From an uncultured bacterium (GTDB lineage Bacteria > Nitrospirota > Thermodesulfovibrionia > Thermodesulfovibrionales > Dissulfurispiraceae), in NCBI GenBank assembly GCA_937960465.1, contig CALGPO010000005.1:1-41086 (forward strand): a stretch of DNA of 41,086 bases. Direction: 5' to 3'. Below are positions 1-38,646 of the stretch, in pieces. The notes under the pieces are model-generated. The model searched no databases. It saw only the letters and a list, made by a program, of their open reading frames with translations, and was not told the DNA's origin. The translations under genes were made by a program, and so were the position numbers. Each line of letters starts with the position of its first letter. Position 1 is the first letter of the stretch.

Positions 1-188
1 TCCTTATTACTATTGCGCTCATAGCCCTCAGCTATATTAGAAACTATAGAGACCGATGATCTATTCATCTGTTCTTTTAAGCCAGAATCTTTTAAAAATT
101 TTCCTTGAGCAGTTAATTTATAAATGTCGATAGCTAAAGCCTTTGCTTCTTGCCACACTTTTAATTCTTTGAAACTCTGATAACTCAC
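1..188 (-). CDS. Four-helix bundle protein (S23/IVS type), partial
   Basis: The reading frame enters from the left edge of the window, so only the first ~62 codons are present. The translation begins SYQSFKELKVWQEA and continues to NIAEGYERNS. The motifs FxxLxVWQxA, then MxRSSxSIxxNIAEG, are hallmarks of the small four-helix bundle family (about 120 residues), first described as proteins encoded in 23S rRNA intervening sequences and now common as free-standing genes. Function is unknown. The start is GTG at 188, and that GTG is contributed by the last unit of the 8-bp tandem repeat upstream. It lies on the same strand as, and 101 bp downstream of, the channel-like gene. Confidence 0.85.
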   Translation of the reverse strand, partial: MSYQSFKELKVWQEAKALAIDIYKLTAQGKFLKDSGLKEQMNRSSVSIVSNIAEGYERNSNK

Positions 189-285
189 CCCTTCACCCTT
201 TCACCTCTTCACCCCTTCACCCCTTCACCCCTTCACCCCTTCACCTCTTCACCTCTTCACCCCTTCACCCCTTCACCTCTTCACC
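185..285. repeat. 8-bp tandem repeat, 12 units
   Basis: Twelve uninterrupted octamers plus a partial one: seven TCACCCCT, four TCACCTCT, one TCACCCTT (AAGGGGTG-type on the minus strand). The array fills the entire space between the channel-like gene stop (290) and the four-helix-bundle start codon. Each unit carries a purine-rich AAGGGG or AAGAGG followed by GTG, resembling a ribosome binding site plus start. Copy-number change would alter the leader of the downstream gene. Confidence 0.95.
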
Positions 286-289
286 ATCT

Positions 290-7821: not shown

Positions 7822-7842
7822 GCCTTCTCTCCTAATTTAAAA

Positions 7843-7897
7843 TTTTTGATTCATCTCCCATTTAGTTGCAGTCCAAATTGAGCAATTCTAATCTATT
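7843..7897 (+). repeat. 55-bp direct repeat, copy A
   Basis: Matches copy B (8698-8752) at 53 of 55 positions in the same orientation. The core reads CTCCCATTTAGTTGCAG then CCAAATTGAGCAATTCTA. The two copies bracket 800 bp holding the DUF4160 and DUF2442 genes. Shorter relatives lie at 38205-38233 and 38517-38540, and part of the core also resembles the end of the 80-bp palindromic element. Confidence 0.9.
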
Positions 7898-7933
7898 GGT
7901 AGAGTAGAAAACAAGAGACCTAAAATAGAAAAA

Positions 7934-7993
7934 GCCCTCCATTTATGGTATAAATAGTTTTGACAAAAAAACAAAACCATAAAAAAGGAGGGC
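7934..7993. repeat. Imperfect inverted repeat, possible IS end
   Basis: Left arm GCCCTCCATTTATGGT, right arm ACCATAAAAAAGGAGGGC, separated by 26 bp of A/T-rich sequence that includes a TTGACA. The right arm supplies the ribosome site of the short frame at 7997. Origin from an insertion sequence is inference. Confidence 0.55.
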
Positions 7994-8126
7994 AATATGA
8001 ACGTTGGGGTCAGGTCTTGTTTCTTGCATAAACCAATAAGCTCAATCCTCTTTGCTACAGGCGGAGCATTTTGGGAGGAAGAGTATATTTAAGAAAGTAT
8101 AAACGTTATTATGGTAAAATAAACAT

Positions 8127-8370
8127 GTGAGTCCTTCAATTTTCAGGGAAAAGGGATATAGATTTTATTTCCTTTCAAACGAAGAGGATAGGATCCATAT
8201 TCATGTTACGTGTGAGGATGGAGAAGCAAAATTTTGGTTAGAACCAATTGTAGCATTAGCTGTAAATCATGGTTTGAATCCGAGAAAATTAAACGAAATT
8301 CAAAAAAATCGTTGAGGAGCATAAAAATGAAATCTTTAAAGCATGGCAAAGGCATTTCAGTAAGCGTTGA
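8127..8370 (+). pseudogene. DUF4160 protein, frameshifted at an A7 tract
   Basis: As read, the frame runs from GTG (8127) to TGA (8313-8315), 62 residues: PSIFREKGYRFYFLSNE, then DRIHIHVTCEDGEAKFWL, the typical DUF4160 core, ending EIQKNR. The normal family C-terminus lies in the next frame. If the A7 run at 8302-8308 were six As, translation would continue as IVEEHKNEIFKAWQRHFSKR to a stop at 8368-8370, giving a normal ~80-residue protein. The gene is therefore a frameshifted copy, a slippage-controlled gene or a sequencing error. DUF4160 genes commonly sit next to DUF2442 genes, as here, and the pair has been suggested to act as a toxin-antitoxin module. No clear ribosome site precedes the GTG. 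Confidence 0.75.
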
Positions 8371-8635
8371 AAATATAACACCTTTCGGTATATGGCTGTA
8401 CGTAAAAGAAAAAGAATATTTTCTCAGCTATAAGGACTATCCTTATTTTAAAGACCAGACATTAAGTTCCATACAAAATGTTCAATTGCTTCATGGCTAT
8501 CATTTATATTGGCCTGAGCTGGATGTTGACCTTGAAATTGACAACCTCGAGAATCCTGAAAAATATCCTCTGAAATTTGAATCAAAGAAGCATCTAAAGA
8601 GTCGTTCAACGGGACGGCGAGTAGCCGCCCGTTAA
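8327..8635 (+). CDS. DUF2442 protein
   Basis: The start is ATG at 8327, supported by GAGGAG 7 bp upstream. An earlier in-frame ATG would place unrelated residues ahead of the domain. About 102 residues: VSVENITPFGIWLYV, KEYFLSYKDYPYFK, HGYHLYWPELDVDLEI, then NLENPEKYPL, all standard for DUF2442 (short proteins thought to bind DNA or partner proteins). The gene overlaps the out-of-frame 3' end of the DUF4160 gene, so the pair is probably one transcript. The last ~12 residues (SRSTGRRVAAR) are encoded by a palindrome and are probably an accidental extension. Confidence 0.8.
   Translation: MKSLKHGKGISVSVENITPFGIWLYVKEKEYFLSYKDYPYFKDQTLSSIQNVQLLHGYHLYWPELDVDLEIDNLENPEKYPLKFESKKHLKSRSTGRRVAAR
8608..8633 (+). 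terminator. Hairpin at the end of the DUF2442 gene
   Basis: AACGGG-A-CGGC, loop GAGTA, GCCG-CCCGTT. Ten base pairs with one bulge, overlapping the stop codon at 8633-8635. Only a weak AATTCTAT follows, so a rho-independent terminator is possible but not typical. Confidence 0.4.
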
Positions 8636-8845
8636 TTCTATCGTTAGGCTAATAATAGAAACTTTGTATAAATCAATATGGATATCGGCCTACAAGATTT
8701 TTGGTTCATCTCCCATTTAGTTGCAGCCCAAATTGAGCAATTCTAATCTATTTATTATGTTAGGTGCGGCAAAAGAGGCTTCTTTGAGCCGTACCTGTCT
8801 GCGTGCAACGCACAGGCAGGCCCGACATATAAAATATAAATCATT
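8636..8845. other. Gap with repeat copy B and a palindrome fragment
   Basis: Holds the 55-bp repeat copy B (8698-8752) and CCTGTCTGCGTGC...GCACAGGCAGG (8795-8821), which is the central palindrome of the 80-bp element found at 18224 and 38567. No coding frame seen. Confidence 0.7.
8698..8752 (+). repeat. 55-bp direct repeat, copy B
   Basis: Same orientation as copy A (7843-7897), with two mismatches in 55. It marks the right border of the DUF4160/DUF2442 cassette. Confidence 0.9.
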
Positions 8846-9947: not shown

Positions 9948-10022
9948 CGTCCCCAATGGGATTCGAACCCATGTTACCGCCTTGAAAGGGCGATGTCCTA
10001 GGCCGGGCTAGACGATGGGGAC
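9948..10022 (-). tRNA. tRNA-Glu (anticodon TTC)
   Basis: Read on the minus strand the gene begins GTCCCCATCGTCTAG. The anticodon arm is CGCCC TTTC AAGGCG with loop CTTTCAA, and the T arm carries GGTTCGAATCC. The acceptor stem GTCCCCA pairs with TGGGGAC. 75 nt including discriminator G. CCA is not encoded. It starts one base after the tRNA-Lys discriminator. Confidence 0.95.
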
Positions 10023-10023
10023 A

Positions 10024-10096
10024 TGAGCCGCGTTGGATTCGAACCAACGACCCACGCCTTAAAAGGGCGTTGCTCTACCAACTGAGCTAGCGGCCC
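10024..10096 (-). tRNA. tRNA-Lys (anticodon TTT)
   Basis: Minus strand: GGGCCGCTAGCTCAGTTGG, anticodon arm with loop CTTTTAA, T arm GGTTCGAATCC. The acceptor GGGCCGC pairs with GCGGCTC (one G-T pair). 73 nt with discriminator A, no encoded CCA. First gene of a two-tRNA transcript. Confidence 0.95.
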
Positions 10097-18223: not shown

Positions 18224-18303
18224 CTAAATTGAGCGATTCTATATTCAGACCTGTCTGCGTGCAACGCACAGGCAGGACTGCCTTACAAAATCGCTTAACT
18301 TAG
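18224..18303. repeat. 80-bp palindromic element, copy 1
   Basis: Terminal inverted repeats CTAAATTGAGCGATT and AAATCGCTTAACTTAG, with a central palindrome CCTGTCTGCGTGC-AACGCACAGGCAGG. Copy 2 at 38567-38646 has the same length with four differences in 80. No coding capacity. Resembles a short MITE or REP-type unit. The rest of the 18175-18462 gap holds no recognisable gene. Confidence 0.9.
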
Positions 18304-32030: not shown

Positions 32031-32070
32031 ATGATAGTTTACCTTACAGTTGCATAAAATCAAAGGTTAC

Positions 32071-32239
32071 AGCAAGGACTAACATGCGTAAAAGACTTTG
32101 CCTGCGACACCTTATAAGATTTTCAATACCACCATATCGTATTCAGCATTGGATTCAAGTCTCTGTTAAAACATTTATATTCTGCATGAATACGGTTTCC
32201 TATCGCTTGTAAAGGCTTTGAAGCATGTTAGTCCTTGCT
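32071..32239. repeat. 169-bp imperfect palindrome, MITE-like
   Basis: The ends are a perfect 17-bp inverted repeat, AGCAAGGACTAACATGC (32071-32087 and 32223-32239). Further in, the arms continue to match with mismatches, including CGTATTCA against TGAATACG. Outside, GTTGCATA is also mirrored. The element fills the gap between the TPR gene stop (32259) and nadB, so it is in the leader of the nadB run. No coding frame. It could be a miniature transposon, or a long hairpin RNA in the transcript. Confidence 0.85.
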
Positions 32240-32258
32240 GTCTATGCAACATTAAGGT

Positions 32259-36477: not shown

Positions 36478-37330
36478 ATCTTTTGTAGAATTTATAGTAT
36501 ACTTCACCAATGGCTATCGTGACAATAGTCAACAGTATGCCTCCAATCACATCCACCGCATAGTGGTACCTTAGATACACTGTCGCAAAAATCAGAAGAG
36601 CAACAGGGGACAGCATTATCCAGAAGAGTCCTCTTGCGTATCTGTATGCCAGAAGCAAAACTGTAAGGGCAATTCCAGTATGTCCGCTTGGAAATGCATC
36701 CCTCTTAACCCCTTCAAGGAGATTCAATATATCCTGAATAGGTTTGGATACAAGGAAGCCGCTTATCTGTCTTTCTTGAAGATGCTCCATCGCATACCTC
36801 GGGCCGAGGGCTGGAAAGAGTATATAGCCCACATATGATAGATAAAAGCAGAGGAGTATTAAAAACAATGATTTTTCAAACTCCTCATTTTTCTTTTTTA
36901 TCTTCAGCACAACGCCAAGTATTATAGGCAGAAAATAGTATGTGGAATAGGCGACCTGCAATACATCTGTCAATACAGAATTCATGATCCTTTCCATAAA
37001 AATGGTAGGATAGCCTCCAAAGATAATATAATCAAGCCTTATGAGAAGATAGTCAATATCCTGAGGATTGATGTTGTGGACAATCAGCCCGAGGCTGTCA
37101 AAGATTATGAGAACGCTTATGACAGGGAATATGATATCCCTCGTCAATACAAAAAATGGGTTAAGCCTGCTCAAATAAACAAGTATCAACTGAAAAAATA
37201 TTAATGATGCATATATGAGAATTAGATAAGGGGCAGGAGGGATTTTGTTATAAAAAAATACAGTCAGAACTAAAAGTAGAAAGCTGAATAAAGCGGTGAT
37301 TGTATCGGCAGGTCTAAGCTGTCTCAGCAT
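36458..37330 (-). CDS. PAP2-superfamily membrane phosphatase (Aur1/inositol-lipid type)
   Basis: About 290 residues from ATG 37330; an ATG-like start 14 codons earlier is less likely. Six or more hydrophobic helices. The catalytic motifs are LFPALGPRYAMEH (variant C1), FPSGHTGIALT (C2) and LRYHYAVDVIGG (C3), the Aur1/PAP2_3 type rather than classic PAP2. Such proteins act on phospholipid headgroups or inositol lipids. With Ino1 and a phosphatidylinositol-phosphate synthase 1.4 kb away, dephosphorylation of PI-phosphate is a reasonable but unproven guess. It overlaps the HepT-like gene by 17 bp. Confidence 0.8.
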   Translation of the reverse strand: MLRQLRPADTITALFSFLLLVLTVFFYNKIPPAPYLILIYASLIFFQLILVYLSRLNPFFVLTRDIIFPVISVLIIFDSLGLIVHNINPQDIDYLLIRLDYIIFGGYPTIFMERIMNSVLTDVLQVAYSTYYFLPIILGVVLKIKKKNEEFEKSLFLILLCFYLSYVGYILFPALGPRYAMEHLQERQISGFLVSKPIQDILNLLEGVKRDAFPSGHTGIALTVLLLAYRYARGLFWIMLSPVALLIFATVYLRYHYAVDVIGGILLTIVTIAIGEVYYKFYKRYGFTAH

Positions 37331-37769
37331 TATCTTGTTGCTCTTTTCTTGCAAGATACCTGTTTGTTGCATCTAAAAAACTCTCAAATAACGACCTTGA
37401 TTCTGATATAAATCTTTTTATTGAAGCCCACCTTATATCAAGGTATTCATGGGAAATAATATTTCTGAGCCTTACCCATCTCGAAAGCATTTCCATATTT
37501 TCTTTGTTAAAATCTGCCAATACTGCAAGTGAATTTACGACCTCTTTATAGGTATAAGGCAGAGGAAGTCCTTCAGCGGTTAATATTATTTTGGCAATGT
37601 CTATAGATGAATTTATGATATTTTCAATCCATCTCTCAACATTTCTTCTTTTGTTTCTATCTGCATTGTACTGTTCCCATGAAAGAAAATTGAAAGCATC
37701 ATAATCCTGCAACTCGCTTTCGAGAAAAGTTATGTGCCTAATAAGTCTGACCTTAAATTCCTTTTGCAA
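37314..37769 (-). CDS. hepT: HEPN toxin (HepT/DUF86-like)
   Basis: 151 residues, TTG start with AAGGG upstream. All-helical. The HEPN catalytic motif Rx4HxY is visible as RNIISHEY (about residue 108), preceded by LADFNKENMEMLSRWVRLR. HepT proteins are RNases, or are inactivated by AMPylation of the Tyr by their MntA partner. It overlaps the MNT gene by 17 bp, the standard pairing. The family member is longer at the N-terminus than minimal HepT (~115). Confidence 0.85.
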   Translation of the reverse strand: MQKEFKVRLIRHITFLESELQDYDAFNFLSWEQYNADRNKRRNVERWIENIINSSIDIAKIILTAEGLPLPYTYKEVVNSLAVLADFNKENMEMLSRWVRLRNIISHEYLDIRWASIKRFISESRSLFESFLDATNRYLARKEQQDNAETA

Positions 37770-38181
37770 GATATACCCTTTCTTTATAATTAGTTATAAC
37801 AAAGTCCATAAAATCATCAGCCTCTGCTGTAATAACCTCCATAAAGTCAAGATACAAACTCCAGTCATTTATTGCAAGAGTAACACCTCTTATTGCAGTA
37901 GCTGCAACAGTTGAAGAAACCCTATTTAAAACAATCAGTTCAACATCTTTTTTTACAATCTGCTCAATATCAGTCCATATCTCATCTTCTGCCTCATAGT
38001 ATTTTTCTTCTTCATATTCTACCGGATGCATTTTTTCAGGATAAAAATACACTGCTATATCCACATCAGACAATTTAGTAGCAGTTCCCCTTATCTGCGA
38101 ACCGAATAAAAAGGCAAAGGCAATATCAGAGCGGTTTTGGAAGTAATGCTGTAGTACTTCTATATGTAAGTCAGTAATCAT
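37753..38181 (-). CDS. mntA: MntA-type nucleotidyltransferase antitoxin
   Basis: 142 residues. The MNT catalytic signature GSQIRGTATKLSDVDIAVYF (about 27-46) has the GSxRG and DxD elements. It is expected to AMPylate the adjacent HEPN toxin. Antitoxin precedes toxin with overlapping frames. The 520-bp gap upstream is packed with repeats, suggesting a region that accepts insertions. Confidence 0.87.
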   Translation of the reverse strand: MITDLHIEVLQHYFQNRSDIAFAFLFGSQIRGTATKLSDVDIAVYFYPEKMHPVEYEEEKYYEAEDEIWTDIEQIVKKDVELIVLNRVSSTVAATAIRGVTLAINDWSLYLDFMEVITAEADDFMDFVITNYKERVYLAKGI

Positions 38182-38233
38182 TGCTATATTAATATATGGC
38201 TTATTCCCATTTAGTTACAGCCAAAATTGAGCA

Positions 38234-38474: not shown

Positions 38475-38566
38475 TGCACCATATTCCGTGAAGAGCCCAT
38501 TTAATTAATAGTTCATATCCCATTTAGTTACAATCTAAGATGAACCATAAATAATATATCCACGAC

Positions 38567-38646
38567 CTAAATTGAGCGATTCTATATTCAGGCCTGTCTG
38601 CGTGCATCGCACAGGCAGGCCTGCCTTACAAAATCGCTCAACTTAG
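38567..38646. repeat. 80-bp palindromic element, copy 2
   Basis: Same length and structure as 18224-18303, four substitutions. Begins CTAAATTGAGCGATT and ends with its near-complement. Two of the four changes restore pairing in the palindrome. Confidence 0.9.

Follow-up and report, generated by a model that had tools for sequence, protein, structure and literature searches.

DhiTA of Dickeya dadantii was shown by experiment to be a type II toxin-antitoxin (TA) system (PMC8198452). On Thermus plasmids, a DUF4160/DUF2442 module acts as toxin and antitoxin (PMC12724237). In Vibrio superintegrons, which are chromosomal integrons, each TA cassette contains an entire TA operon and its own attC site (PMC2654758), and CALIN elements are defined by at least two clustered attC sites and no integron integrase, IntI (PMC9668308). 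For restriction-modification genes, insertion with long target duplication is described in passages of PMC3874152 and PMC1643837 that go back to Nobusato et al. 2000.

The window analyzed here is a stretch of 41,086 nucleotides from a Thermodesulfovibrionales-like, MITE-rich genome (G000) without an integrase above the cut-off. The unit at about 8106–8643 is, with good probability, a solitary integron cassette, a DhiTA-type TA operon with its own attC that lies outside any integron. The original prediction had included neither this cassette reading nor the attC, the toxin frameshift or the larger dispersed element to which the repeats belong.

The DUF4160/DUF2442 pair and its predicted attC site

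The TA pair that the original prediction had placed between two direct repeats was recovered as Pfam matches to DUF4160 (E = 8e-12) and DUF2442 (E = 1.5e-14). As in DhiTA and the Thermus module, the same two domains occur in toxin-first order (DUF4160, then DUF2442) in overlapping or adjacent genes. Unlike in those systems, the window toxin is frameshifted, with a match covering domain positions 1–51 of 65 only where that of the intact G012 protein spans 1–65, and the operon ends in a predicted attC. The frameshift may reflect decay or an assembly error. The toxin also lies far below the NCBIfam DhiT equivalog cut-off, even the intact G012 relative scoring 22.6 of 100 bits, and neither the DUF4160 nor the DUF2442 protein was matched by a PADLOC model. 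Close relatives of the cassette, in G012, G003 and G014, are at other loci.

Behind DUF2442 the sequence reads ATCTAAAGAGTCGTTCAACGGGACGGCGAGTAGCCGCCCGTTAATTCTATCGTTAGGC. Covariance models replaced a strict scan for attC patterns, by which most sites had been missed. A model of 21 sites, from which the window was excluded, recovered the window site at E = 4.5e-17 (E-values from these models are rough) and also matched sites on contigs with above-cut-off integron integrases (G012:C6 and G034:C77). For a second model (A6, 37 sites), 64 double-change cells were counted versus 31 ± 4 in shuffled and 13–25 in slid controls, a count made on an alignment that was fitted to its structure; a first count, on alignment A3, gave a weak signal, the stem registers not being the same in all groups. 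The R′′, L′′, L′ and R′ arms can be folded with the extra base in L′′, the R′′ box has one mutation from the expected ATCTAAC, and a G|TT boundary is present at the cassette 3′ end, with flanks that are unrelated between loci. In 80 DUF2442 relatives from many phyla (Nitrospirota, Thermodesulfobacteriota/'Deltaproteobacteria', Planctomycetes, Chloroflexi, Omnitrophota and others), conservation of the 3′ end, where present, extends to ...C GTT, and the loci diverge beyond it. A strong attC stands at the gene end in 30 of the 80 loci, some of them in arrays (e.g., L122, with five sites); a clear attC is absent from about half of the relatives. Taken together, these comparisons identify the window site as a predicted integron attC with its cassette boundary at 8643; the 5′ boundary is less clear than the 3′ boundary and was set by comparison.

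It is most improbable that this site is a terminator or coding coincidence at the end of an ordinary chromosomal TA operon. A hairpin at an operon end can be a terminator, and antitoxin codons do extend into this hairpin, but no T-run follows it, and the boxes, the extra base in L′′, the covariation, the GTT boundary and the matches near IntI genes all fit an attC.

Antitoxin frames of different families were seen to read into their own attC (window 8584–8635; L254, L247, L248, L265 and L260), and the attC-encoded C-termini are alike, with tails LTKHSSGRAIARR, LTSHSTGRRVAAR and LTKHSTGR.... A short gene weakly like RusA resolvase is located 5′ of the TA pair at L106, L107, L108, L114, L116, L117 and L119 and is perhaps a second cassette that travels with it.

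Features of the repeat-bracketed locus, in window coordinates
Feature	Position	Strand	Remarks
Direct repeat copy 1	7839..7897	+	left half of dispersed MITE-like element, with about 10 bp of flanking DNA
Insertion sequence (IS) left end, 102 bp	7898..7999	+	begins exactly at the end of repeat copy 1; rest of IS absent
Unplaced DNA between IS end and cassette, about 106 bp	8000..8105	+	further genome matches at chance level only
Integron gene cassette (probable)	8106..8643	+	inferred boundaries G|TTATTATGG ... G|TTAGGC
DUF4160 (DhiT-type toxin) gene	8127..8315	+	frameshifted/truncated versus three relatives (G012, G003, G014); one extra base in an A-run near 8300
DUF2442 (DhiA-type antitoxin) gene	8327..8635	+	intact; last codons inside attC
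Predicted attC recombination site	8592..8649	+	R′′ ATCTAAA, paired L′′/L′ arms, extra base in L′′, R′ GTTAGGC
Spacer from attC to repeat copy 2, 44 bp	8650..8693	+	
Direct repeat copy 2	8694..8752	+	left half of MITE-like element
MITE-like element interior	8753..8835	+	contains dispersed palindrome CCTGTCTGCGTGCAACGCACAGGCAGG; right end missing

attC sites across the genome and cassette-free loci

Eleven attC sites were found in G000, a MAG: single sites on contigs C5, C64, C85, C97, C114 and C142, two on C56 and three on C154. Six of the 11 stand directly behind a Pfam-recognised TA pair, namely those on C5 (DUF4160/DUF2442), C114 (BrnT with a BrnA-like partner), C142 (HicA) and C97 (Unstab_antitox with a RelE-like partner), and those at C154:2313 (ParE with Phd/YefM) and C56:1100 (HicA). 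The gene upstream of the site at C154:1607 is DUF2283, presumably a TA partner as well. So the TA pairs of G000 would appear to be, in good part, dispersed integron cassettes. No complete integron was recognized, no IntI in G000 scoring above the TIGR02249 cut-off; nine of the 40 genomes searched have such an integrase. Since G000 is 98.67% complete and in 155 contigs, the integrase gene may be absent from the assembly only.

The bracketed unit has a HEAT-repeat gene on one side and a TauE gene on the other. This neighborhood is shared, without the unit, by three congeners and G034, in agreement with the proposed accessory insertion: in G003 a 79-bp gap is present, in G001, G002 and G034 other genes lie between, and in all four both cassette and MITE are lacking. 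The empty site with one repeat copy that had been suggested was not found among these loci, which have zero copies of the repeat, the MITE being absent from the relatives. Searches against phages gave zero matches, and those against plasmids gave matches all under 45% identical. Rfam models matched two tRNAs only over the window, adjacent to each other at 9948–10096 on the minus strand.

If the unit is a solitary cassette, an integrase that acted in trans or has since been lost would have recombined the bottom strand of attC, in folded form, with a short GTT-type (attG-like) target, and the other TA pairs of G000 would have been seeded singly by the same route. Addiction would keep the pair in place where it is intact; the window copy is probably decaying, since its toxin frame is broken.

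Direct repeats at the window locus and in other genomes

The direct repeats, originally described as 55 bp long around 800 bp, are real and in fact 59 bp long (56/59 identical or 95%, both in the same orientation, with a spacing of 855); the 55-bp subset is 7843–7897 and 8698–8752, with exactly 800 bp between copies. A 29-nt repeat core matches the window twice, at the two copies, where 0.00 matches were expected by chance, and the pair cannot be attributed to chance. The suspected IS-end remnant also held up as a repeated IS-type end, 97–100% identical to four further genome sites, and all four run on into sequence absent from the window.

IS copies of the same family as the 102-bp end are located near contig ends in G000 (C145:1, C130:1, C111 end and C85 end; L070–L073), three of them cut by the assembly shortly inside the element.

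In G000 itself (1.92 Mb) the repeat core has 22 copies; it was found in 0 of 39 relatives, the three congeners included. The copies are dispersed, short and non-coding and have terminal inverted repeats, and together they define a MITE-like element, an imperfect inverted repeat of roughly 125–200 bp (left GGTTCATCTCCCATTTAGTTGCAG..., right ...TTGGAGATGAACC) that often has the palindrome nested mid-element among flanked copies. A search for a parent transposase of this element found none. The window repeats are left halves of this species-specific element, not recombination sites of the cassette.

The palindrome occurs at window positions 8793–8835, 18249–18291 and 38592–38634, is dispersed in G000 and several other genera, and so ranges wider than the MITE that nests it. 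A further repeat with inverted arms, ACAGCAAGGACTAACATGCG ... CATGTTAGTCCTTGCTGT, at window 32069–32241 and at L011, L013 and L030, adjoins several MITE copies. At window 185–288, the 8-bp unit TTCACCCC and its variants are repeated in tandem.

Fragments of the repeat are present beside HepT/MntA, as had been claimed, at 38205–38233 (93% over 29 nt) and 38501–38559 (61%), adjoining HepT-like and nucleotidyltransferase genes. The general link between repeat and TA sites that these fragments had suggested failed when contigs were compared genome-wide. Core and attC share C5 only; the remaining core copies are spread over 17 further contigs, and no contig that bears one of the other ten attC sites has the core. 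With this many core copies in G000, none in the relatives and none on another attC contig, the link is unsupported, so there is no general connection between the MITE and the TA cassettes of G000. The repeat was ruled out as a signature of TA sites. The HepT-like/nucleotidyltransferase (MntA-type) pair, at window 37314–38181, is without attC, and a MITE core fragment begins just upstream of it, at 38205.

Flanks of the 80 loci and the G003 locus were scanned, and long direct repeats of differing, local sequence were seen. Using 250-bp flanks and gene-matched controls from the same contigs, a limit beyond which the window repeats fall and are uncounted, such repeats flanked the TA pair in 8 of 74 cases versus 5 of 321 control genes (p = 6e-4, about 7-fold more often), in a test devised after this first set had been seen and replicated only afterwards. 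With unchanged settings, 60 further Nitrospirota loci gave 6/57 versus 0/139 (p = 5e-4), and 4/55 versus 0/139 (p = 0.006) when the set was reduced by L335, a duplicated attC, and by one member of a related pair of hisB cases. The suspected role of direct repeats as marks of insertion of the TA pair was therefore borne out in other genomes; about 90% of its relatives have no such flanking repeat.

In Nitrospira G247, hisB precedes the pair, and the hisB end recurs after the pair as a second copy of 88 bp, beyond which the DNA matches the native hisB downstream flank. In G215, G341 and G347 the two G247 flanks join at one copy, which makes these true one-copy empty sites, as expected of a long target duplication. 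At least five species-level Nitrospira genomes (G247, G291, G414, G299 and G419; L366, L403 and L405–L407) have DUF4160/DUF2442 immediately after hisB, with long hisB-end repeats at two of these loci; hisB looks like either a recurrent insertion point or a single old insertion. In G151 (L383) the first base of a perfect 26-bp repeat coincides with the start of the attC GTT; a search for an empty site for L383 found none. A general rule that repeat copy 2 begins at the GTT was abandoned, as it holds for L383 and not for the window or L067. The start of the L366 repeat at the GTT possibly stems from a later deletion, the L381 repeat being longer.

Three accounts of the window repeats were weighed. 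It is quite possible, if short of probable, that they arose by long target duplication as one MITE received the entire block of 796 bp (IS end, unplaced DNA and cassette): when the block and one repeat are removed, a single continuous MITE left part remains, and the excess of local repeats around the TA pair, the hisB empty sites, the G151 repeat and, from the passages cited above (PMC3874152), the restriction-modification precedent all agree with it. The repeated DNA is, however, a dispersed element of which two copies are unsurprising, copy 2 begins about 50 bp past the cassette boundary, no relative has the MITE at this site, and most relatives of the pair are without such a repeat. A comparable standing, plausible yet below even, is given to two MITEs that flank the cassette by chance within one intergenic region, inserted separately or as a pair, the IS having later truncated copy 1. 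In favor of this are the 22 core copies in 1.92 Mb and the end of copy 1 exactly at the IS end; both copies are nevertheless left halves in the same orientation with common flank bases, and neither has a right end. Identity between copies is ordinary, since 8 of 153 MITE pairs reach at least 46/48 and the window pair is no closer than those, while the about 10 bp shared beyond the MITE is less so, 8/10 upstream identity occurring in only 5 of 153 pairs; on these two counts, local duplication is mildly favored as the apparent source of the pair. Direct repeats of 59 bp can recombine, and the repeats might in that way be a mobility device by which the TA unit is excised or moved, either as a circle or as a composite element. 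This is very unlikely, because the other TA cassettes of G000 are never bracketed by this repeat and close cassette relatives in G012, G014 and other genomes are without it.

More broadly, and only tentatively, TA pairs might move as single integron cassettes over integrase-less genomes, some insertions leaving target duplications of 26–110 bp. Speculatively, the integrase would make a single precise junction, at the GTT of attC (the L383 case), and repair would seal the other elsewhere. With the excess of long target duplications around this TA family, a second class of genes joins a pattern described until now for restriction-modification genes, and its mechanism can be tested on natural insertions whose empty sites are known. 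Should lone integron cassettes account for many chromosomal TA operons, they would provide a concrete, testable route by which solitary TA pairs spread between phyla.

Comparison with known systems

As judged from the passages of PMC3874152 and PMC1643837, the insertions seen here resemble those of restriction-modification genes in being addiction-type units with one-copy empty sites and with variable direct repeats that reach about 100 bp; they differ in that the unit is a DUF4160/DUF2442 TA pair, often with an attC, and in that about 10% of loci are concerned.

Cassette integration at attG sites was reportedly described by Loot et al. in 2024, a study cited in PMC11023631. The present case is similar in having cassettes outside attI and attC at short GTT-like targets; here, such integration is deduced from natural genomes alone.

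The G000 attC sites resemble CALIN (PMC9668308) in lacking an IntI, and the clusters on C154 (three sites) and C56 (two sites) fit that class, whereas the window attC is a singleton and is left out by the cluster definition. Because single attC sites fall outside this definition, lone cassettes may be overlooked. Like the TA cassettes of Vibrio superintegrons (PMC2654758), the window cassette would combine an entire TA operon with its own attC; unlike them, it is single, with no array and no integrase above the cut-off.
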